The notes under the pieces are model-generated. The model was given only the letters and a program-made list of their open reading frames with translations, searched no databases and was not told where the DNA came from. A DNA stretch of 33,500 bases from Calidithermus chliarophilus DSM 9957 (GTDB taxonomy: Bacteria > Deinococcota > Deinococci > Deinococcales > Thermaceae): positions 49,307 through 82,806 of the forward strand of contig NZ_KE387028.1 in assembly GCF_000430045.1 (NCBI RefSeq), read 5' to 3'. How positions within the stretch are numbered: position 1 is the stretch's first letter; each line of letters begins with the position of its first letter. Shown piece by piece: positions 1,015 to 26,010 of this stretch. The position numbers and the translations under genes are program-made.

Positions 1015-1052
1015 CACATCATCCGTGAAAGGTACATTTCACGGATGATGTG
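1015..1052. repeat. Perfect 16-bp inverted repeat, 6-nt spacer
   Basis: Arms CACATCATCCGTGAAA (1015-1030) and TTTCACGGATGATGTG (1037-1052) are perfect complements around GGTACA. The right arm contains the stop codon of the M16 peptidase gene, and the left arm ends 28 bp before the ATG of the 531-986 gene. No T-tract follows on either strand, so it is not a standard terminator. It may be an operator, an RNA stem at the operon end, or the boundary of the imported lanthipeptide operon. Confidence 0.85.
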
Positions 1053-2343
1053 GGCGGTGCCAAGGCACCCCCTGGCCGCACCGGATTTTCAGCCCTACTA
1101 GGAATGACCCACAGGCGCTGGGGCCAACCTCGGCCGCCGGTTCACGGGGGGAAGACATAAACCTCCGATGAGGAAACGGTGCCCGCGCCAAGTAAGCGGC
1201 GACGTCGGCCGTTCGCAGCTGCTCAACAGCAAGGGCGAGTTCATGCGGGTCGTGGACCTGGCCATAGAGCGTGAATTGCTCCCCCAAGGAGAGCACCCGG
1301 TCCAGCGGGGACGCCGTCAGCTGCAGATGGGCGACGGCGACCTGTTCCTCCAGACCCTCGAGCAACCCAGCCGGGCAACCCTCACCCTCCAGGGCACGGA
1401 AGGCCGCCTGGATCCCTGGACCGACCTCCCCCCGGAGTTCGGCATCGTAGCCCACGATCACGAAACAGCCCGTCCACGCGGCTGTGGCCTGTGGCGCGAC
1501 GAGCAGCGAGGTGGCCACCCCGCCCAGCTCGAGCGCCTGGACGAAAGGGAGGCGCCGGTCGGTGAGCATCTGCCGCACTACGGCCTCGGCCGCAAAGTCG
1601 GGGTGCCCCGGGGGCACGCCTGGCACCACCGCAACCGCGATCGGTTCGCTAAGACCTGGAGCGCCGCCGGACAGGCCAGCCGGGCAAGGGGGGTGGTACC
1701 CGGTCGGTGGGCGGGGATCGGAAGGTGAAGTCAGCGAGATTCGCTCCGCCCACTCAAGCACCTCGTCCCAGTCAAAGTTCCCGCCGACGCAGACGGCGGC
1801 GTTGGCAGGGGTGTACCACCTCCTGTGGAACGCGCGCACCGCGTCGACAGTGGCACGCTGTAGGTCGGCAGCGCTGCCTATGGGGCTGAGGCTACGCCCC
1901 GATATGCGCCGCCAGACGGCCTCGACGGCACGCGCCATTGCGTCGGTGCTTGTCTCGGTCATTTCATTGAAAATAACGGCCTTCTCCGCTATCAAGTCCT
2001 CAGCCGCAAACGTAGGGGCGAATACCAGGGTGGCCAGCCCGTCTAGGAGGGTGGCAACGTGCTCCGGTCGCGTCACCCCAAAGTAGCAGACGTAGTCTCT
2101 GGCCGTGTGGGCGCTGACCCAGGCACCGCAACGGGCGAGCTCACCACCGGGGGCCAGCAGGCGCCGGGTCTCGCGGAAGATCAGGTGCTCCACGAGGTGG
2201 GCGACGCCCTCGAGGCCGCTCTCCTCGCAGCGACTTCCCGCCTTGACGAAAAGCGCGATCGCAGCGTAGGACGACCCGTCCATGGGCAGCCCGAGGGCGC
2301 CGAGGCCGGTACCTATACCCGTATGCCAAGTGAGGACCGCCAC
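1039..2343 (-). CDS. M16 zinc peptidase, catalytic subunit; probable lanthipeptide leader protease
   Basis: Member of the M16 (pitrilysin/insulysin, M16B) family. The zinc motif HxxEH is present as HLVEH at residues 49-53, and the downstream glutamate ligand is probably E127 (AVIFNEMTE). At 434 aa it has the usual two-domain M16B subunit size. The GTG at 2343 is chosen because GGAGGAGGG lies just upstream and the stop of the preceding gene is one base before it; the longer frame to 2448 would overlap that gene by 104 bp. It is the last gene of the lanthipeptide operon. M16B heterodimers are known to mature class III lanthipeptides in Firmicutes, so leader removal is the likely role. The last 10-15 residues run into the inverted repeat at 1015-1052 and look atypical, so the natural C-terminus may have been altered there. 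Confidence 0.85.
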   Translation of the reverse strand: MAVLTWHTGIGTGLGALGLPMDGSSYAAIALFVKAGSRCEESGLEGVAHLVEHLIFRETRRLLAPGGELARCGAWVSAHTARDYVCYFGVTRPEHVATLLDGLATLVFAPTFAAEDLIAEKAVIFNEMTETSTDAMARAVEAVWRRISGRSLSPIGSAADLQRATVDAVRAFHRRWYTPANAAVCVGGNFDWDEVLEWAERISLTSPSDPRPPTGYHPPCPAGLSGGAPGLSEPIAVAVVPGVPPGHPDFAAEAVVRQMLTDRRLPFVQALELGGVATSLLVAPQATAAWTGCFVIVGYDAELRGEVGPGIQAAFRALEGEGCPAGLLEGLEEQVAVAHLQLTASPLDRVLSLGEQFTLYGQVHDPHELALAVEQLRTADVAAYLARAPFPHRRFMSSPREPAAEVGPSACGSFLVGLKIRCGQGVPWHRPHHP

Positions 2344-2344
2344 C

Positions 2345-3511
2345 TTAGCCCTCCTCCAGCGGTTGATCCGATTCGACCACCGCCCAGTGGCAGGTCGGGT
2401 CGGCGGTAGCAAGCCGATCCAGCAATCCTTCCAATGTCGCCGCCTCACAGAGGGCTACCAGATCATCGAGGGCCCGGGGAGAACCCCACAGGGCCAAGTG
2501 CTCCGCCAAGGCCACGGCTCGAGCGGCCGGGGCGTGGTCCTCCTCGAGGAGCTTGAGCACCGTGAGGCTGCGGTACTTCTCGAACTTTGGATCGTCCAGC
2601 CAGCCACCTACACTGGCTAAGGCTCCCGCCAGCGCGTGGTACGCCGGTCTGGCCCGGTCAGCCGCGGTTGAGAGCAGGACCACGGGCAAGCCATAGCTCC
2701 CCGCCAGTTCCCGGGAGCAGTTGGCCGAGTAGATCAGTCCGTCCCGGTTGCGCAACGCCTCCACCAGTAGTGCGCTTGTGTCGGCGGCTAAAGCATGGCA
2801 GAGGATGTGGGTGTACACAAACGACTCCGGATCCTGGGGGAGCGGCGGAAGCGCGCACGCGACGACGGCGTGGCGTCCCAAGCTTCGGGCGCGCACGGTA
2901 CGGGTGGGGCCGAACGTCACGGGCAACGCCTCTATAGGCAGACCGCGGACCTGCTCCAGCAGGTCCTCTGGCTGCTCAGCCCCCACGATGGCCAGGTTGG
3001 CACCCTCCGGGCCGAGCCGGGCGAGCAGTGCGGCAGCCTGCGCCGCTCCCGGCCCGGCCGACCAAGCCGGGAGTCCGTTGTGACTCTGCGCATACACGAG
3101 GCGCCGGAGCACCACTGCGGGGGGCTCTGCGCTCGAGGGGGTGGGCTCGCTGCGGGCGCGAGTGTCCAGCAGTCCCCGGATGAGTGCCTCCCCTTGTATG
3201 GCTGAAACGCTGAGCAACTCCCGCAGGAAGCTTACGACTTCCGGTAGCTTTTTCCGGCGGGCCACGAAGGTGAGCGAGGCGGTGTGGGGCCCCAGCGCCT
3301 TCGTGACGGTGACGCCCCCGGCCTCGAGGGCCTCAACCCAGGGCTCCACGGCACCCCAGGTGGCCTCGAATACCGCTTGCGCAAGGCCGGACCAGCCTGG
3401 AGGGTCGGCAGCATACCCGAGAGGCAGCGTCAGCCGCGCTGCGGAGAGGACGGTGCGCGGTTCGGGGCACACCGCCACCAGCAGGCCGTTTTCGAGGTGT
3501 TCGTATACCAA
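2345..3511 (-). CDS. M16-like peptidase partner lacking HxxEH
   Basis: 388 aa with the M16 fold signature (ENGLLVAVCPEPRTVLSAAR, then a helix where the zinc site should be). At the HxxEH position the sequence reads GLAQAVFEATWG, so there are no zinc ligands and no catalytic glutamate. Such degenerate subunits pair with an active M16B subunit and bind substrate. The gene begins at TTG 3511, two bases after the stop of the synthetase gene (GGGAG nine bases upstream), and ends one base before the catalytic M16 gene. The three are almost certainly co-translated. The inferred role is the substrate-binding half of a heterodimeric leader peptidase. Confidence 0.8.
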   Translation of the reverse strand: MVYEHLENGLLVAVCPEPRTVLSAARLTLPLGYAADPPGWSGLAQAVFEATWGAVEPWVEALEAGGVTVTKALGPHTASLTFVARRKKLPEVVSFLRELLSVSAIQGEALIRGLLDTRARSEPTPSSAEPPAVVLRRLVYAQSHNGLPAWSAGPGAAQAAALLARLGPEGANLAIVGAEQPEDLLEQVRGLPIEALPVTFGPTRTVRARSLGRHAVVACALPPLPQDPESFVYTHILCHALAADTSALLVEALRNRDGLIYSANCSRELAGSYGLPVVLLSTAADRARPAYHALAGALASVGGWLDDPKFEKYRSLTVLKLLEEDHAPAARAVALAEHLALWGSPRALDDLVALCEAATLEGLLDRLATADPTCHWAVVESDQPLEEG

Positions 3512-3513
3512 AT

Positions 3514-5130
3514 TCAGGCGCTCCCAGCGGTTTGGACGGGTTCGGCTGCGCGGATAAACTCAGGCACCAGGCTGTCCAGCATGAAGTTGAAATTCTCGGT
3601 GCGCTCACCACGGAGTGCCCGGCGCAGGCGATCGAGGAATGCGATAATCCCCGCCGACCCGGTGCCGAAGTCGGTCGAGATCCTGAGCAGCTGCTGGCCG
3701 GGGAAGGCGAGCCCGGACAGCCGCTCGACCCGGAATAGGAGGATGCCGTCGGCGGTCCGGTGGGCCTCCTGCAGGAAGCGCGGGTCTCCGGTGAACTCAT
3801 ACACGTCCAAAAGGGTGTTGCCCAGCCCAGCGAGCCCCTGGAAGAGGTTGGGGAAGGCCGTGTACCAGCGGCAGCAGTCGGGGATGAGCCGGTCGAGCAC
3901 CCCCTTGTAGCGGGTCTCCCCAGTGTAGCGCCAATAGCGCAGAAGCGCCGTCACCACTCCCGCGCTCCCGTCGACCCAGTAGTGGCTAACGACGTTGTCG
4001 TCAGGATCGTTCGGGTCTCGCTTGAGGCTATCGACGTCAGGCATTTCGGGATAAGGCATCACATGTCGCAGGTCCCACTCCAGCGCCTCCTTGCCGAGTT
4101 CAAGGTACGCCGCGTCTTGGGTGGCGTGCGCAAGGTACAGGAGAAACAGAGCTACGCCGCTTCCACCCCGGGCGTATCCGGTGTACTTTTGCAGCTGTTG
4201 GGAGGTCCACAGGGTCTCCCGGTTCTCTACAGCTCGCTGCCGTATCTCCCTCCCGGCCCGGTCGGCCTCGTCGAGCCACCGCTGCTGCCGGGTCCGCTCG
4301 TAGGCCGCCAGGCAGGCGAGGCCGTAGCCGCTCGTCCCGTAGAAAAGGCTGCTCTCCTCGAACAGGAGCGGGTGCCTGGAGGCGAGCCGTAGCAGCCGAT
4401 CTGCCAGGTCCTCGAGGCCCTGCTCCCGCAGAACCCAGGAAACGCCGCAGAGCCCCAGGTAGAGCCCAGGGGTCATCCGCTCGGCGTTGAGGTGGCGGTA
4501 GCCTTTGTCGAGAACCCAAGCCAAGACCCAGCCTGGAACCGGCTTCCCGATCGTCTTGAGGGCGTGGACCACCCCAGCCACGCCGTAGGCCACGCTCAGC
4601 GGGTTGGACTGGCGGGAAGCGATGTCACCCGGGAAGAGGCGGGTGTCACGTGAGGAGTCCGCGCTGCTCAGGATGTACTCCACCGCCCGGTCCACGACGG
4701 ACTCGAGCACGTCCTCCGGCGGCAAGGTGTCCAGGTCCTGCGGTTCCAGTGGCACCACGCCGTCCTCAAGGACGCGCACGACCTCCTCGACGGTCGGCCG
4801 CTCCGCAGGGTCGGGGCTCAGCAGCCCAGCGATGGCGCCGGCGCCGTGGACCTGCTTAGGTAGCCCGAAGTACGCAGCAGCCCTGTCCAGGAAACGGCCA
4901 GCTGCCGCCGGCTCGAGCTGAAACATCAAGTTCCCCGGCAGCAGGTTGTGCAGAAAGATCGCCCCGAGGGAGTAGGCGTCGTCCGCCCAGTCCCGGGCCC
5001 CCTCCTGAAAGTGCCGTTGGCTGGCGAACCCCGGGGTCGAGAAGCGGTTGAATGCGTCCACACCGCACTCCACGCTGCTCTCGAGGTCGATAAGCTTTAC
5101 AGTCCCCCGTTTGGGGTCCGTTAGCACCAC
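3514..5130 (-). CDS. lanKC: Class III lanthipeptide synthetase LanKC, C-terminal part (kinase C-lobe and cyclase), out of frame with the N-terminal part
   Basis: This 538-codon frame carries the second half of a LanKC enzyme. It begins just after the kinase catalytic loop and contains the metal-binding aspartate (VKLIDLESS), the kinase C-lobe (DDAYSLGAIFLHNLL) and a full LanC-like (alpha/alpha)6 cyclase domain with repeated GxxG helices. The three LanC zinc ligands are missing: where LanC enzymes have WCHG this has YWVDGSAG, and where they have CHG this has NLFQGLAG. That absence is diagnostic of class III (LanKC) as opposed to class IV (LanL). The apparent GTG start at 5130 lies inside a 7-bp duplication and has no proper ribosome binding site, so this is a broken half of one gene with the 4856-6262 frame, not an independent protein. 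Reading through with the duplication removed gives one 913-residue protein, a normal length for LanKC. Confidence 0.85.
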   Translation of the reverse strand: MVLTDPKRGTVKLIDLESSVECGVDAFNRFSTPGFASQRHFQEGARDWADDAYSLGAIFLHNLLPGNLMFQLEPAAAGRFLDRAAAYFGLPKQVHGAGAIAGLLSPDPAERPTVEEVVRVLEDGVVPLEPQDLDTLPPEDVLESVVDRAVEYILSSADSSRDTRLFPGDIASRQSNPLSVAYGVAGVVHALKTIGKPVPGWVLAWVLDKGYRHLNAERMTPGLYLGLCGVSWVLREQGLEDLADRLLRLASRHPLLFEESSLFYGTSGYGLACLAAYERTRQQRWLDEADRAGREIRQRAVENRETLWTSQQLQKYTGYARGGSGVALFLLYLAHATQDAAYLELGKEALEWDLRHVMPYPEMPDVDSLKRDPNDPDDNVVSHYWVDGSAGVVTALLRYWRYTGETRYKGVLDRLIPDCCRWYTAFPNLFQGLAGLGNTLLDVYEFTGDPRFLQEAHRTADGILLFRVERLSGLAFPGQQLLRISTDFGTGSAGIIAFLDRLRRALRGERTENFNFMLDSLVPEFIRAAEPVQTAGSA

Positions 5131-6262
5131 GCACCACGTTCCTCACCGAAAAGTCGCAGTGGAGCACGTTATGCCGTTTGAACTCTAGCATCGCCAGTGC
5201 GAGGTGGTACCAGACCTTGCCGATCTCCTCCAGGTACCGCCTGCGGTCGTCCGGGCCCGGGTTGATCCGGCTGATCACCGGGTTGTGTCCCATCACGAAC
5301 GTCACCAAGTCCATGCCCTCAACGAATTCCTCCGCGAGGAAGAGGTGCTCGCCTTCCTCGAACAGGGCGACCGGGGCGGGTACCAGCTCAGTAGGCGCGA
5401 GCTTCGCCAACAAGCGCCACTCCTTCCGGAGCCTGCCGACGGCGTCCAGCCCGTCGCCCACGTTCTCGGAAGTGTACGGGCGTGCTTCTTTGATCACCAC
5501 GGCCCCGCCTGTCGTAGAGTCGGTTGCCCGGTATACGCCGCCACTGGTACTGAACGACAGCGCTCCCTCGACCACGAAGCGCCCCTGCCCCAACGTGAGG
5601 GTCTCGGTGGGACCCTCATCCTCCTCGCCAGGGTCGAAGGGGTCGGTGACCCAAGCGGGGCAGTGCCAGTAGGGAACCCGGAGGTCTGGCACGATACTCC
5701 CGTGCGGGTCCACCAGCTGCTGGGCAGCCCTGCCGTCGAGCGACAGCTCGGCCTTCCCCAAGAACGCCCCGTAGCAGTAGTGCACTACCTTGGAATCCTT
5801 GTACCTACGGTCCGAGAGCACATAAGGACCCTCGAACCCCTTGAACTCCTCGTATAACACTTCGCAGACGTGCTTAAACTGCTCGTCCGAGTTAGGGTAG
5901 ACGACGATGAATTTGCACGCTGCAGGCCGAGGGTAGCCCTTCGAATTCATCCGGGTAAGGAGGCCAGGGTCCGAGACGCACTTGAAGGCAAGGTTCAGCT
6001 CAACGCAGACTCGGCAGGCCCGCTCGAGCACCTCTAATGACCGTCCTAGCGTGGATGAAAGGTGGATCTTCCAACCCTGGAGGCGAACCGGGTAGTTTGG
6101 GGGCGTGGCGAAGATCCAGACCTCACTGCGGATAACCTCCCACGAGGGAGGCACCAACCGGCGCACCACCTCGAGGTGCTCGTACGAGATCGGGATCCGG
6201 TCGGGCTTTTCGTAGAATTCGGGGTGTGCTGCCAGGAGCAGCGGTTCAAGTTCCCACTCCAT
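4856..6262 (-). CDS. lanKC: Class III lanthipeptide synthetase LanKC, N-terminal part (lyase and kinase N-lobe), frameshifted
   Basis: It starts at ATG 6262 with AAGGAAT directly upstream, 20 bp after the ABC transporter stop. Residues ~1-210 match the LanKC lyase domain (LQGWKIHLSST, CKFIVVYPNSDEQF, GPYVLSDRRYKDSK), which eliminates phosphate from phospho-Ser/Thr. Residues ~225-375 are the kinase N-lobe, with a conserved lysine (VVIKEARP), an acidic helix and the catalytic loop HCDFSVRN (H368, D370, N375). Immediately after N375 the tandem duplication 5124-5137 shifts the frame; the remaining ~90 codons, ending at 4856, read a wrong frame (Arg/Gly/Pro-rich). Together with 3514-5130 this is the installer of dehydroamino acids and (methyl)lanthionine or labionin rings in the peptide at 8212-8349. 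As given, the gene should be inactive unless the duplication is variable or erroneous. Confidence 0.85.
   Translation of the reverse strand: MEWELEPLLLAAHPEFYEKPDRIPISYEHLEVVRRLVPPSWEVIRSEVWIFATPPNYPVRLQGWKIHLSSTLGRSLEVLERACRVCVELNLAFKCVSDPGLLTRMNSKGYPRPAACKFIVVYPNSDEQFKHVCEVLYEEFKGFEGPYVLSDRRYKDSKVVHYCYGAFLGKAELSLDGRAAQQLVDPHGSIVPDLRVPYWHCPAWVTDPFDPGEEDEGPTETLTLGQGRFVVEGALSFSTSGGVYRATDSTTGGAVVIKEARPYTSENVGDGLDAVGRLRKEWRLLAKLAPTELVPAPVALFEEGEHLFLAEEFVEGMDLVTFVMGHNPVISRINPGPDDRRRYLEEIGKVWYHLALAMLEFKRHNVLHCDFSVRNVVRGANGPQTGDCKAYRPREQRGVRCGRIQPLLDPGVRQPTALSGGGPGLGGRRLLPRGDLSAQPAAGELDVSARAGGSWPFPGQGCCVLRAT
5124..5137. repeat. 7-bp tandem duplication that breaks lanKC
   Basis: GCACCAC occurs twice in tandem (5124-5130, 5131-5137). 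On the coding strand the text is AACGTGGTGCGTGGTGCTAACG. Removing one copy joins HCDFSVRNVV directly to LTDPKRG, restoring the canonical kinase segment between the catalytic loop and the DFG-equivalent LID. Confidence 0.9.
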
Positions 6263-6282: not shown

Positions 6283-8097
6283 TCAGTCCACAATGCCGTT
6301 TGCGCCGACAGGGGTGTTGTATGCCGCTGCCTGCAAGTCCCACAGCGCGCGGTATTCGCCGTTGAGCCACAGCAGTTCGGTGTGCGAGCCCTGCTCGACG
6401 ACACAGCCATCCTTGAGTACGAAGATGTGGTCGGCCATCTGCACCGAGGCCAGGCGGTGGGTGATGAGGAGGACGGTCTTGCCCCGGCTGAGCTCGGCAA
6501 AGTTCAAATAGAGCTCGTGTTCGCTGCGAGGGTCGAGGGCGGCAGTTGGCTCGTCCAGCACAACCAGATCGGCAGTCTCGCCCCTCATGAACCCTCGGGC
6601 AAGCGCGAGCTTTTGCCACTGACCGCCGGAGAGCTCGATTCCCCCGAAGGGCCGCCCGATCTGGGTCTGGTAGCCCGCCTCGAGTGAGTCCACCACGGGT
6701 CCGATCCCCGACTTGGCCGCCGCTGCCTCGACCCGGGCCTCCAGCTGGGGGAGGTCAACTCCGCCGAGCGCGATGTTCTCAAACACGGTCAGGTTGTAGC
6801 GTGCAAAGTCCTGGAAAACTGCGGTGATGCGCCTGCGCCAAGCGTCGAGGTTGAGATCGCGCAGGTCGTGGCCGTTAACCAGGATCTGACCCTCCGTGGG
6901 GTCGTAGAAGCGCATCAGCAGCTTCACCAAGCTCGTCTTGCCCGCCCCATTCTCGCCCACGATCGCGTAGACCTTGCCGGGCTCTAGGGTCAGGCTGATG
7001 CCCTTCAAGACGGGCACCCCGGGTAGGTACGCGAAGCTGACGTCTCGGTACTCGACGCGGGGCGGTAAGGTGGGTTCGAGCCTCACCCCGTGCTTCTTCT
7101 CCGGGAGCCCAGGCTCCCGCGCCAAGTACTGCTGAAGCTGGCGCATGTAGAGCAGGTCATCCGCGAACGATGCCGACAGCTGGATGAAGTTCGCCAGGTT
7201 GTCCTGGATGCCGACGAGCGCCTGCAGGAACAGTACGAGCGCCCCGACCTGCGCCAGCCCCCGCAAGGCCTGGTCCGCGATGAAGAGGACGCAGGCCGCG
7301 ATGACCCCGAGGTTCACCATTCCGAGCGCCGCAGCGAACGTTAGCGCCCGGACCCGGGCGGGAGTGCGGGCCGCGACCATGGTCTCGAAGGTCCGTCGGT
7401 ACAGGTTGAGGAAGTAGGCGCCCAGGTTGAACAGCCGGACTTCTTTGGCGAACTGGGCGTCGAGCAGCACCGTGGCGTAGTGGGCAAGCTTGCGCGCCTC
7501 CACCATGGTGTGGCTCATCACCCGCCAAATCCCGTTCTGCAGGCTGGCGGCAAACGCGACTTGCGGGATGAGGCTGGCGAGCACCACCGCCGGGATCCAC
7601 CAAGCGATGGGGGACAGGAGCGCGAGCAGGGCGGCGATAGTGATGAGGTTCTGAGTGAGGTAAAGGGTCCGTAGGACGAACATCGATGGCCGGGCCAGGG
7701 CCTGCTCCTGCAGCAGCTGGATCTCGTTGTAGAACTGTGGGTCCTCGAACGGCCGGAGATCCTTGAGCTGGGCGGCTTTCTCCATCAGTGAGAGCCGGGC
7801 CAGCCCCGAAACCTTCTCGTTCAGGCGGGTTTGCACGTACGACGCGAACGGGCTAATGAGGTACTGCCCTGCCACCGCCAAGCCCAGCACCGCTGCCGTG
7901 GTTAGGAAATCCTGCCGGTCCGCTGTTCCTCCGCCAAGCAGAGCGGCCAGTTGGCTGACCACAAGCTGGGTCAGCCAAGCCACCACTGCAGGGAGCAGGC
8001 CCTGGAGCAAGGTGGTTGCCGCGGTGAACGCCAACTCCGCCGGCGCAATCCTCATCGCGTAGCGAAACCCGAAAACCACATCCTGTATCGCCATCAT
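6283..8097 (-). CDS. ABC exporter (fused membrane and ATPase domains) for the lanthipeptide
   Basis: 604 aa from the ATG at 8097 (AAGGGC just upstream); a TTG 30 bases earlier is possible but lies in a hairpin. Residues 1-330 form a type-1 exporter membrane domain with about six hydrophobic helices. Residues ~345-600 are the ATPase: Walker A GENGAGKTS (~380), signature LSGGQWQKLALARG, Walker B VVLDEPTAALD, H-loop ITHRL. There is no N-terminal C39 peptidase domain, so it exports but does not cleave, fitting the presence of separate M16 peptidases. It probably works as a homodimer in the inner membrane, exporting the modified peptide. It lies between the precursor gene and the synthetase. Confidence 0.9.
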   Translation of the reverse strand: MMAIQDVVFGFRYAMRIAPAELAFTAATTLLQGLLPAVVAWLTQLVVSQLAALLGGGTADRQDFLTTAAVLGLAVAGQYLISPFASYVQTRLNEKVSGLARLSLMEKAAQLKDLRPFEDPQFYNEIQLLQEQALARPSMFVLRTLYLTQNLITIAALLALLSPIAWWIPAVVLASLIPQVAFAASLQNGIWRVMSHTMVEARKLAHYATVLLDAQFAKEVRLFNLGAYFLNLYRRTFETMVAARTPARVRALTFAAALGMVNLGVIAACVLFIADQALRGLAQVGALVLFLQALVGIQDNLANFIQLSASFADDLLYMRQLQQYLAREPGLPEKKHGVRLEPTLPPRVEYRDVSFAYLPGVPVLKGISLTLEPGKVYAIVGENGAGKTSLVKLLMRFYDPTEGQILVNGHDLRDLNLDAWRRRITAVFQDFARYNLTVFENIALGGVDLPQLEARVEAAAAKSGIGPVVDSLEAGYQTQIGRPFGGIELSGGQWQKLALARGFMRGETADLVVLDEPTAALDPRSEHELYLNFAELSRGKTVLLITHRLASVQMADHIFVLKDGCVVEQGSHTELLWLNGEYRALWDLQAAAYNTPVGANGIVD

Positions 8098-8119: not shown

Positions 8120-8157
8120 GGGCACAAAGGCCCGGACCAACCCGAACCTTTGTGCCC
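8120..8157. promoter_or_regulatory. Stem-loop between precursor and exporter genes
   Basis: GGGCACAAAGG (8120-8130) and CCTTTGTGCCC (8147-8157) form a perfect 11-bp stem with a 16-nt loop, in the 114 bp between the precursor stop and the exporter ATG. No T-run follows. Such hairpins in bacteriocin operons often let the precursor mRNA accumulate above the downstream genes by partial termination or by 3' protection; that is inferred here. Confidence 0.65.
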
Positions 8158-8211: not shown

Positions 8212-8349
8212 CTAGGGGCAGTAGGTCGTCTGGCAGCCCCCGCCCGTGCAGCTGCTGGAGTAGCACGAGCTGCAGCTAGGCATCACCATGCCGTTGACGC
8301 GCTTGTCCTTCACCTGGAGCCTCTGAAGCTTGAGCACGTTCTTACGCAT
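8212..8349 (-). CDS. lanA: Class III lanthipeptide precursor peptide, 45 aa
   Basis: The ATG at 8349 has an ideal GGAGG five bases upstream, and TAG ends it at 8212. The leader begins MRKNVLKLQRLQVKDK: the amphipathic LKLQRL (residues 6-11) matches the hydrophobic LxLQxL helix that LanKC enzymes recognise in class III leaders. After a short linker (NGMVMP) comes a Ser/Thr/Cys-rich core from about residue 25: S25, S27, S28, S31-S33, T35, T41, T42 as dehydration candidates and Cys 26, 29, 34, 39 and 44 as ring partners. Five cysteines in ~20 residues is high for class III, where S-x2-S-x(2-5)-C units dominate; here S28-Y-S31-S-S-C34 gives such a unit. It is the first gene of the operon, followed by exporter, synthetase and two peptidases. 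It is too short to be found by length-limited gene callers. Confidence 0.88.
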   Translation of the reverse strand: MRKNVLKLQRLQVKDKRVNGMVMPSCSSCYSSSCTGGGCQTTYCP

Positions 8350-8489
8350 AGATCCTCCAATGCAATCAAGTCAAAAGCCTAGACCTGGCTGCGGTGGCGA
8401 ACCAGTGCGTGGGGATATCAAACCCCTAAACACGACAGGGACTGTTTCTTTGTCCTACTGTCAACTGCCACCTAGACTCTGTCCTAATC

Positions 8490-8577: not shown

Positions 8578-9096
8578 TTCTGTTTCATATCTCTCCCCTG
8601 GACCTGGCGATCTCCGGCCCCGACAAGCACGGCAGGCTGTACCTGGCGAAGGCAAAACCCACTCGCGCTTTTCCTCGCGCGAGTGGATCAGGAGCGCCCT
8701 CAAGGGCTTCCTGAAACTGGTGGCTGAGCACCTCCAGGGCGAGGAGCGCTCGCAGTTCCACCGGGTCGTGCGTTACCTGAAGCGCTGGCGGGACCGGAAC
8801 TTCCCCGATGCGGGCAACGCGGCCCCGGTCGGGATCGCCGTGACCGTGATGGCTCTGAAGGCCTTCCGGCCCTCCGTCGACCGAACGGGCAGGCCGGATG
8901 ACCTGAAAGCGCTCAGCACGACCGTCAGGGGCATGCTCGAGCCGTTCCATTTCTTGCTGTTTTCCCCCGGACGGCAGTGGCCAAGCTGCTGGTGAAGCCC
9001 TTCGACCACGTGCTATCCTACATGACGCCCAAACAGAACCACCGGGCCGGAGTAGCAGGAACGGCGGCTGGACGGTCAGGGGGGCCACAGGCTTAG
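8578..9096 (+). pseudogene. Decayed CD-NTase-like (CBASS-type nucleotidyltransferase) gene, C-terminal two thirds
   Basis: Three reading frames together give a continuous match to the middle and C-terminal part of CBASS nucleotidyltransferases. Frame 1 (about 8578-8650) reads PLDLAISGPDKHGRLYLAK, like the strand with the last catalytic Asp and the RLYLA element. Frame 2 (about 8640-8970) reads SREWIRSALKGFLK, QFHRVVRYLKRWRDRNF and APVGIAVTVMALKAF. Frame 3 (about 8975-9096) reads LLVKPFDHVLSYMTPKQN, like the PVxPxxDxFxxMTxxQ end. The N-terminal GS motif and first catalytic acids are absent. No effector gene is adjacent. This is a remnant, presumably cut when the lanthipeptide operon or other DNA arrived on its left. 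The family call is from pattern memory only. Confidence 0.5.
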
Positions 9097-22829: not shown

Positions 22830-24149
22830 GTGTTACCTCAACACCTTGAATCCCCACTCGCGTTCATCATCCAGCTGAGCGACATCCATCTCCATCACTC
22901 AAAACCGAACCCCGTTCTAGATCGGGCTGCCCGGATCGTGGATGCCATCCGGGGGATTGAGCCCGGGCGGGCACGGCAGTGCGTGCTGCTGGTGACCGGC
23001 GACGTAGCCTTCAGCGGCAAGCCGGAGGAGTACCGGCTGGCGTCGGATTTTTTGGCAGGCCTCCGGCAACGTCTTGAGTCAGAGACCGACAACCCCGTCG
23101 AGGTCATCCTAATTCCAGGCAACCACGACTGCGACTTCGCTTTCGACTCTAAGGCCCGCGGTTTGCTTCGGGATGCAAGCCTCAATTGTGGGGACGCCGA
23201 TGCCTCGGTCGTGGACATCGCGACCAATGTGCAGAGCGCTTTCTTCGAGTTTCGTTCAACTTTCGCTAAGGGCGCATGCCCTCAAGGCTTGGAGCGCCTG
23301 TTCCAAACCGTAGAGATCCCGGTCGCAGGCGGCAGGCTTTACGTGAACGCCTATAACACCGCGTGGCTGTCCACCTTGAGCGAAAAGCCGGGAGAACTCT
23401 TCATGCCGGTCACGCGGCTGACGCCTCCTGACCAGCGTGACGGACTGGTGGTCAGCGTCTTCCACCACCCGTACGGTTGGCTCGAGCCGAACAATGCCCG
23501 CGACTTTCGTAACCTCATTGAGCGCACCTCCGATTTTGCCCTGACCGGCCATGAGCACGTCCCCGGGGTGCGGGACGTGAGCAACCGGGACGGGTCAACC
23601 CAGCACTACATCGAGGGCGGGGTGCTACAGGACAATGATGACCCTGCCCAGAGCTGGTTCCACGTGATCGTCCTCGACCTGCTTAACAACCAGCACAAGA
23701 CGGTGACCCTGACCTGGAACGGGGAGCGCTACTCCACCTCCTGTGAGGACGCTTGGTCCAGCATCCCCTGGAATTCCTTGCGGCAGCGTAGGGAGTTCCA
23801 GTTCCAGCAGGGCTACGCCGAGGAGCTCGACCACAGTGACTTCCGCTTCAGTACCGCCCGGCGGCAATTCTCTCTCAGCGACCTCTTCCTCTACCCCGAA
23901 CTGACGGTGTCATCGCCCCGGGACCAGGCCAGACGCATCGACCCGAAGCTGGGCAAGCCGGAGGCCACCCGGGTCCGGTCGGGGCAATTCCTCGACTTCA
24001 TTCGCGAACACCGCAAGGTCATGCTCTACGGACCAGAGAAGTCCGGCAAGACCACCCTGAGCAAGCGCCTGCAGGTGGAGCTGTACGAAGCCGGGATGGT
24101 CCCCGTTCGGCTGGACGTGAGTCGCCTCAAGGACCTGCAGCCTGTATAA
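22830..24149 (+). CDS. Metallophosphoesterase-STAND NTPase, N-terminal part (frameshifted)
   Basis: GTG 22830, placed five bases after a -10 box. Residues ~10-260 are a calcineurin-like metallophosphoesterase: IIQLSDIHLHH (DxH), LLVTGDVAFSG (GD), LIPGNHDCDF (GNHD), VFHHPYG and ALTGHEHVPG (GHxH), all metal ligands present. Residues ~365-440 begin a STAND-type NTPase with Walker A YGPEKSGKTTLSKRL. The frame then breaks at 24147. Predicted defence proteins join an effector (here a phosphoesterase) to a STAND ATPase sensor, and this has that layout. It continues in a second frame at 24151. It is not one of the named Avs types as far as I can tell. Confidence 0.8.
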   Translation: MLPQHLESPLAFIIQLSDIHLHHSKPNPVLDRAARIVDAIRGIEPGRARQCVLLVTGDVAFSGKPEEYRLASDFLAGLRQRLESETDNPVEVILIPGNHDCDFAFDSKARGLLRDASLNCGDADASVVDIATNVQSAFFEFRSTFAKGACPQGLERLFQTVEIPVAGGRLYVNAYNTAWLSTLSEKPGELFMPVTRLTPPDQRDGLVVSVFHHPYGWLEPNNARDFRNLIERTSDFALTGHEHVPGVRDVSNRDGSTQHYIEGGVLQDNDDPAQSWFHVIVLDLLNNQHKTVTLTWNGERYSTSCEDAWSSIPWNSLRQRREFQFQQGYAEELDHSDFRFSTARRQFSLSDLFLYPELTVSSPRDQARRIDPKLGKPEATRVRSGQFLDFIREHRKVMLYGPEKSGKTTLSKRLQVELYEAGMVPVRLDVSRLKDLQPV

Positions 24150-24150
24150 A

Positions 24151-26010
24151 GTGTGGAAAGCCGTCGAGAAGATATTCGAAGAGCAGTACGACAAGGGCAC
24201 CGAGGCCTACCGCCAGCTACCGGAGGAGAAGCGGGCCTTCATCGTGGATAACTTCCACTCGGAGGTTCTCGACTACCGGCAGAAGGAAGCGCTGGTGGAG
24301 CAATTGACGAAGCTAGGCGATTATATCGTGCTGTTCAGCGGGGACGAACTCGCTGTTGACGAGTTCGTCATCGCCCGGAGCCTGAAGCCTTTGCTGGAGT
24401 TCAAGCGCTGCGAGATCCAGCCGTTCGGTTACTCCCTCCGCTCACAGCTCATCCGGCGCTGGTACGCCACCTCCGACGCCTATACCAGTGACGTGGCAGC
24501 CCTCCGTCGGAAGTGTCTGCAGGTGGAGCAGTTCGTGAACAACATGCTCGGCGCCCAGCTGATCACCCCGTACCCCTTCGCCGTGCTGATCATCCTGCAG
24601 CAGATCGAGACCAGCCTGGGGCACGATATCACCTCGGCCTCCTACAGCGCTTTCTGCGAGCTGTACGTCAAACAACAACTGGCCCTGATGAGCGAGGTGA
24701 CGAGGATTGAGCTGGGCACTTTCGGGGCGGTGCTGGAGGAGCTCGCCTACCGGCTGTACGACAGCGGGCAGCGCACGATCTCCCGGCCGGCCTTCGAGGC
24801 ACTGGTCGCCGAGTACAGCAGGTCCAAGCTGATCAAGGTTGACCCGCAGCGGCTGATCGACGCCCTGCAGTCTCGCGGTTTCCTCCGCAACATCGCCTCA
24901 GGCGTTGAGTTTTTGTACAACTATCAGTTCCACTACTTCACCGCCGCCCACGTCGACTCCTTGCTCAAAACAGACCCGGACAAGGGCCGCGAGGTGGTGG
25001 CAGGGCTGGTGGAGAACCTGCACCTTGAGAACAACGCCAACATCCTTGTGCTGCTGGGTCATCTGTCTAAGGATCCCCGAATCATGCGGGCGGTCCTCGA
25101 GAATGCACGGAGCCTTCTCGGAACTCAACAAGCCTGCGACTTCGACCGGAGCACGGAGTTCGTGGCCCGCCTGACGGATCGGGTACCTCAGCTGGTGTTC
25201 CGGGACGGTGACCCTGAGGCCAACCACACCGAGAAGCTCAAGCTCCACGACGCCCGGGCAGAGGGCGACCAGGAAGCTCGGACGACCGCCGAGACCCTGG
25301 CCCAACCCGACCCCGAGCGCTACGACCACTCCGTGGATGAGATCGACGAAACCCTGCGCAACTTCATCACCCTGAACAGGGTGTCGAAGACGGTGGACGT
25401 CATGGGTCAGATGCTGCGCAGCTACGCCGGCAGCATCGACGGTGAGACCAAGGTCCGGGCGATGCGCGAGTGCTACGACCTGACCATGCGGGGGCTGGGC
25501 CTCCTCTACACCCTTATCGAAAACAACCTCGAGGAGGCCGTGCAGTTCGTGGGTGAGTTGTTCTTAGAGCGGCTGCCCACCTGGAAAAGCCTCGAGAAGC
25601 GCGAGCTCGAGGAGCGGGCCCGGCATTTCATCTTCAACCTCTGTACGGCGCTAGCCCAGGCTTTTCTCCAGCGGCTCACCAACGCCGTGGGCGCCCAAAA
25701 CTTGGAGCTGGTTTTCAACAGCCTGCTGGAGGACGCACCGGTGTCTTATCATCTGATCGACTACTGTATCCGCACTTGGGCGCTCGACCAGGTGGACATC
25801 CACCGGGTGAGGGAGCTCAAGAAGCTGACCCGCAGCAAGCTCCTCGCCTACACCCTGCTGATGCGGCTCACCCTCACCCACTTCTACCTCTATCATGTAG
25901 ACCCGCGGAAAGCGCAGCAGATCTGCGCGGAGCTCGGCATCGAGTACCGCGCCGCTATGCTTGCCGACCTTCGGGGAAGAGACCAAAAGCGCAACCCGCA
26001 CCGCGGCTGA
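24151..26010 (+). CDS. Metallophosphoesterase-STAND NTPase, C-terminal part
   Basis: The real frame continues from the first half: SLYKVWKAVEKIFEEQ starts upstream of the apparent GTG at 24151. Walker B is RAFIVDNFH (residues ~28-36), followed by a sensor-like segment (YIVLFSGDELAVDEF) and FGYSLRSQLIRRWY, then a winged-helix/helical region (LEELAYRLYDSGQRTISRPA) and ~300 residues of alpha-helices without an obvious repeat unit, where target recognition would lie in STAND proteins. Deleting one C in GCAGCCTGTATAAAG rejoins both parts into about 1,060 residues. No second gene of a defence operon follows; the next feature is a response-regulator scrap. Confidence 0.75.
   Translation: MWKAVEKIFEEQYDKGTEAYRQLPEEKRAFIVDNFHSEVLDYRQKEALVEQLTKLGDYIVLFSGDELAVDEFVIARSLKPLLEFKRCEIQPFGYSLRSQLIRRWYATSDAYTSDVAALRRKCLQVEQFVNNMLGAQLITPYPFAVLIILQQIETSLGHDITSASYSAFCELYVKQQLALMSEVTRIELGTFGAVLEELAYRLYDSGQRTISRPAFEALVAEYSRSKLIKVDPQRLIDALQSRGFLRNIASGVEFLYNYQFHYFTAAHVDSLLKTDPDKGREVVAGLVENLHLENNANILVLLGHLSKDPRIMRAVLENARSLLGTQQACDFDRSTEFVARLTDRVPQLVFRDGDPEANHTEKLKLHDARAEGDQEARTTAETLAQPDPERYDHSVDEIDETLRNFITLNRVSKTVDVMGQMLRSYAGSIDGETKVRAMRECYDLTMRGLGLLYTLIENNLEEAVQFVGELFLERLPTWKSLEKRELEERARHFIFNLCTALAQAFLQRLTNAVGAQNLELVFNSLLEDAPVSYHLIDYCIRTWALDQVDIHRVRELKKLTRSKLLAYTLLMRLTLTHFYLYHVDPRKAQQICAELGIEYRAAMLADLRGRDQKRNPHRG

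Follow-up and report, generated by a model that had tools for sequence, protein, structure and literature searches.

A class III lanthipeptide operon of Calidithermus chliarophilus DSM 9957 with a probably inactivated lanKC gene

We analyzed a 33,500-nt stretch (hereafter, the window) of contig C8 of Calidithermus chliarophilus DSM 9957 and found a class III lanthipeptide operon in which lanKC appears to be inactivated, and which on its own has therefore probably ceased to produce a ring-bearing peptide; we assign this reading a probability of roughly 0.7. From the size (155,960 bp) and content of the contig, we infer that the operon is plasmid-borne; close DNA relatives of the operon were not found among plasmids. 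The order lanA, hairpin, lanT, lanKC, lanP1, and lanP2 runs along one strand. The initial annotation had described a complete operon in which an exporter, LanKC, and two M16 genes follow lanA with gaps of 1–114 bp. The layout agrees with the gene starts (lanT, 8097; lanKC, 6262; M16 genes, 3511 and 2343), but completeness of the operon is not supported: lanKC is frame-broken, and its lyase domain has in addition lost an essential Arg. The features are as follows.

8354–8358, minus strand: Shine–Dalgarno sequence GGAGG, 4 nt 5' of the lanA ATG
8212–8349, minus strand: lanA, predicted 45-aa class III lanthipeptide precursor with LxLQ leader (VLKLQRL) and core PSCSSCYSSSCTGGGCQTTYCP
8120–8157, minus strand: hairpin of 16–17 pairs within the 114-nt lanA–lanT gap
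6283–8097, minus strand: lanT, ABC exporter (membrane and ATPase parts) with intact Walker A, LSGGQ, Walker B, and H-loop
3514–6262, minus strand: lanKC, the whole broken gene, in two reading frames
4856–6262, minus strand: lanKC 5' fragment, RamC_N lyase and N-terminal kinase part (LanKC model positions 5–368)
5774–5776, minus strand: lanKC codon 163, TGC (Cys), which is Arg in other LanKCs and equivalent to ThurKC Arg163
5124–5138, minus strand: exact tandem duplication of the 7-bp unit GTGGTGC, where the lanKC frame breaks
3514–5130, minus strand: lanKC 3' fragment, kinase remainder (LIDLE) and LanC-like cyclase without zinc ligands (LanKC model positions 367–832)
2345–3511, minus strand: lanP1, M16 non-catalytic subunit with an R254/Y261 pair and without HxxEH
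1039–2343, minus strand: lanP2, M16 catalytic subunit with the zinc motif HLVEH at residue 84

The lanA ORF comprises 45 codons from the ATG at 8349 and encodes MRKNVLKLQRLQVKDKRVNGMVMPSCSSCYSSSCTGGGCQTTYCP. Its leader contains an LxLQ-type motif (L6-K7-L8-Q9) of the kind named in PMC7268733, and its core (residue 24 onward) contains 6 Ser, 3 Thr, and 5 Cys, with a spacing (S25-x2-S28-x5-C34) that fits S-x2-S-x(2-5)-C. LanA scored 27.7 bits against the NCBIfam model NF038160.1 (lanthi_III_c), above the curated cut-off of 27, and lanA was the top-scoring place in the whole genome for this model. Additionally, a profile built solely from the two precursors of a relative in the same order (G041; see below) ranked lanA first (E = 1.5e-8) when 1067 small start/stop candidates from the window were scored, whereas the next unrelated ORF had an E value of 1.1. 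The family model, the leader and core motifs, the position, and the fact that related LanKC genes are preceded by homologous precursors together support lanA as a genuine class III lanthipeptide precursor gene, in agreement with the initial annotation, which had proposed such a precursor with an ideal ribosome binding site, an LKLQRL-containing leader, and a Ser/Thr/Cys-rich core. LanA is short and had no Pfam match, as might be expected if the 45 codons were merely a chance Cys/Ser-rich frame; however, we regard chance as barely credible, being ruled out by the NCBIfam score and the ranking with the G041 profile, and homologues also lie at the equivalent place in related loci. A promoter scan found no sigma-70 promoter upstream of lanA, and Rfam gave no match across the operon.

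The closest LanKC within the order was that of G041 (43% identical), with two precursors in tandem upstream, MQRILKLQQTQVHGFKGPKDIVFHSCSSCHVVSCY and MKRILKLQTVLASRDMRALDIVAHSCSSCHFWSCY (L035:11505-11764), with the cores SCSSCHVVSCY and SCSSCHFWSCY. This G041 cluster, on C6, resembles the window's operon in its two precursors with an [IV]LKLQ leader and an SCSSCxxxSC core, but its lanKC is intact, two ABC genes lie downstream, and it has no M16 pair. Both G041 precursors were missed by every NCBIfam class III model at an E value of 0.1. A Chloroflexi locus (L078) encodes a LanKC 45% identical to that of the window and, directly upstream of it, the precursor MRRILALQKIAVDTETTGIVMLSAGSCVSNSC, with the core SAGSCVSNSC; S-x2-S-x5-C is common to LanA and the G041 and L078 precursors. 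It had been asked beforehand whether related LanKC operons carry some other conserved precursor. The closest ones carry clear relatives of LanA, whereas more distant ones from the same family (G069, G076, and G023) have a different core, SWTSSFSxCC, and a VLSLQRM leader.

Within the phylum, only 6 of the 111 genomes searched yielded a LanKC match at E = 1e-20. The statement that class III lanthipeptides are poorly known from Deinococcota thermophiles is consistent with the searchable open literature, but it needs qualification: class III clusters in the phylum are already known by annotation, with lanKC and lanthipeptides annotated on Deinococcus plasmids, and the lanthi_III_c model also matches relatives in the same family. 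The plasmid clusters of Deinococcus sp. QL22 (NZ_CP097152.1) and D. gobiensis I-0 (plasmid P4, NC_017792.1) share with the window LxLQ precursors upstream of lanKC, an ABC exporter gene, and the plasmid location, whereas they differ in having an intact lanKC, several repeated precursors, an adjoining LuxR-type regulator, and no listed M16 pair.

Lyase, kinase, and LanC-like domains are all present in lanKC, yet they are split over two frames. The break falls directly after HCDFSVRN, inside the kinase catalytic loop, at an exact 7-bp tandem duplication, of which the window contains only four. Homology of the 5' fragment stops at about 5131, and the remainder is an out-of-frame read-through of ~91 foreign residues; codon-position GC indicates that the coding frame switches at the duplication. 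Of the 86 LanKC loci compared, 84 retain a single frame; the window's lanKC and L079 do not. In L079 (Fodinicola feengrottensis), two halves of LanKC match in different frames. A composition-based scan of C8 and 180 kb of chromosome for frame breaks also flagged the lanKC break, together with many doubtful sites, and thus provides no usable error rate. The gene carries a further lesion, independent of the frame break: position 163 is Cys, whereas each of the other 78 LanKCs in the alignment has Arg (encoded by CGC or CGA in the four relatives examined). ThurKC (PDB 8sao/8sap/8sam) has the same lyase–kinase–cyclase architecture and a metal-independent cyclase, but it is a single chain with Arg163, and its R163A variant showed no turnover (PMC10604976). 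The lyase residues K65, H67, K94, K108, and K117, conserved at positions matching those of ThurKC, are retained in the window's LanKC, as is D151. On these grounds, this lanKC is most likely a pseudogene, inactivated at the sequence level. As to the class, the cyclase reads NLFQG at the site occupied by QCCG in the zinc-type 8car chain; the zinc ligands are therefore absent, and class III rather than class IV is indicated. A class IV (LanL) assignment was also rejected by model scores, which for both lanKC halves were lower against the class IV than the class III model.

By analogy with the family, LanKC as designed would bind the LKLQ leader, phosphorylate core Ser/Thr and eliminate the phosphate, and form lanthionine or labionin rings with Cys, a ring pattern likewise drawn from family knowledge; the M16 pair would cut off the leader, and LanT would export the product. 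The 7-bp duplication in the kinase and the loss of the essential lyase arginine would since have inactivated this enzyme, and the operon most likely represents a known kind of cluster that has been pseudogenised recently. Since lanA, lanT, lanP1, and lanP2 look intact, any decay would be young, or selection still acts on these genes.

The same lesions can be read in other ways. The duplication and the Cys codon could be assembly or strain artefacts, with lanKC intact in the living strain and the operon functional. Both lanKC halves do retain strong coding composition, and a second split gene in the window (22830–26010) could hint at sequence errors. However, an exact 7-bp duplication is unusual as a base-calling error, the independent substitution falls on an essential residue, and the 9-contig assembly has a completeness of 99.97%; we therefore consider artefacts quite improbable. 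It is far more improbable that LanKC works as two assembling proteins, an N-terminal lyase–kinase part and a C-terminal part with the rest of the kinase and the cyclase, the latter restarting at GTG 5130 behind GAGG at 5146–5143. This in-frame GTG with a weak Shine–Dalgarno-like stretch does lie at the junction, but the cut goes through the kinase catalytic loop and leaves ~91 foreign residues on the first half, and the lyase Arg is missing as well. A programmed frameshift was likewise rejected: no slippery site was seen by eye, the break falls at a 7-bp duplication, and the upstream frame continues for ~91 out-of-frame codons.

Apart from lanKC, the exporter, the lanA–lanT hairpin, and the M16 pair appear intact by sequence. 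The 114-nt lanA–lanT gap has a minimum free energy of −54.8 kcal/mol (z = −2.9), and its hairpin occurs once in the genome and has a weak U tract. It is likely a leaky terminator or transcript stabiliser, and lanA could thus be expressed above the rest of the operon. The lanP2 frame is open from 2448, with GTG 2343 as the probable start, and the best solved relatives of LanP2 were 3eoq and 7v4y ("putative zinc protease"). HLVEH in LanP2 and R254-x6-Y261 in LanP1 correspond to the motifs of PttP1/PttP2, the two subunits of an M16B protease that acts on class III peptides (PMC8960859). Like the present operon, the paenithopeptin (ptt) cluster is of class III and encodes an M16B pair of its own, one subunit having HxxEH and its partner R/Y; the R/Y spacing of 7 in LanP1 equals that of R298/Y305 (PMC8960859), and in both cases a separate M16 pair occurs elsewhere in the genome. 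Here, this is a chromosomal pair at C3:333434-335871, 25–26% identical to the lanP1 and lanP2 products. Conversely, the precursor families differ, and the Q-A-(A/V)-(D/E) cleavage motif of PttA was looked for in LanA and is absent, so the specificity of LanP1/LanP2 must differ. No match to this M16 pair was found near LanKCs in 80 named loci (up to 8 kb on each side) or in the stretches covered for the Deinococcales loci.

A second class III cluster (G000:C8:9002-17582; L032) lies outside the window, about 40 kb from the lanA operon. Besides its lanKC (C8:11510-14329), it encodes a full ABC exporter, a membrane-domain-only ORF, and an 822-aa TPR protein. This lanKC is intact, with the lyase Arg, GDLSPNN, and LIDFE present, and two small ORFs lie upstream of it, MRRILALQKLSSQVARPAPQGWSAISTNCSSNSNGC and MSRILALQKLVPQGTSRPAPQHLSTLSVICSSQNAGCP. 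The first passes the lanthi_III_a cut-off, and the second scored 21.7 against a cut-off of 22. Having an intact LanKC on the same contig that could act in trans counts against a decayed operon, and such rescue is the interesting alternative to pseudogenisation. The second LanKC would modify LanA in trans, and the M16 pair and exporter of the present operon would serve both clusters, since no M16 match, and no protease gene, was found beside the second cluster; sharing in both directions is thus conceivable. The intact lanA, lanT, lanP1, and lanP2, together with an [IV]LxLQ leader common to LanA and both precursors of the second cluster, fit this arrangement. Nevertheless, the leaders are unlike outside LxLQ, the cores differ (S-x2-S-x2-C in the second cluster vs. 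S-x2-S-x5-C in LanA), and the two LanKCs share only ~40% identity; on balance, we consider shared enzymes unlikely. Its fuller form, in which two Thermaceae clusters are interdependent, one giving the only intact LanKC and the other the only clustered protease pair, with LanA matured by a LanKC ~40% identical to its own lost one, appears slightly less likely still.

Inactivation of the operon's own lanKC remains our preferred reading, and it corrects the call of a complete operon: for mining a putatively heat-stable product, it would be preferable to test the LanKC of the second cluster or the intact relative in G041 instead of the broken lanKC. With this locus, a class III precursor family with an SCSSC core and an M16 protease pair encoded within the cluster become known from Thermaceae, for which the open literature on class III lanthipeptides is nearly absent.

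Elsewhere in the window, the plus-strand segment 8602–8995 is a remnant of a CBASS-type nucleotide cyclase: a reading of 8602–8994 contains two stops, and a 91-aa ORF (8720–8995) matches the PADLOC Cyclase model (E = 3e-23). The split gene at 22830–26010 (plus strand) is a candidate defence gene, PDC-S60 (metallophosphoesterase and STAND NTPase), divided into two ORFs by a stop and a shift of frame near 24149, within the NTPase part. In keeping with membership of the Thermaceae, the window also contains a P-type ATPase gene that shares 86% identity over 95% with a gene from a Meiothermus taiwanensis plasmid.
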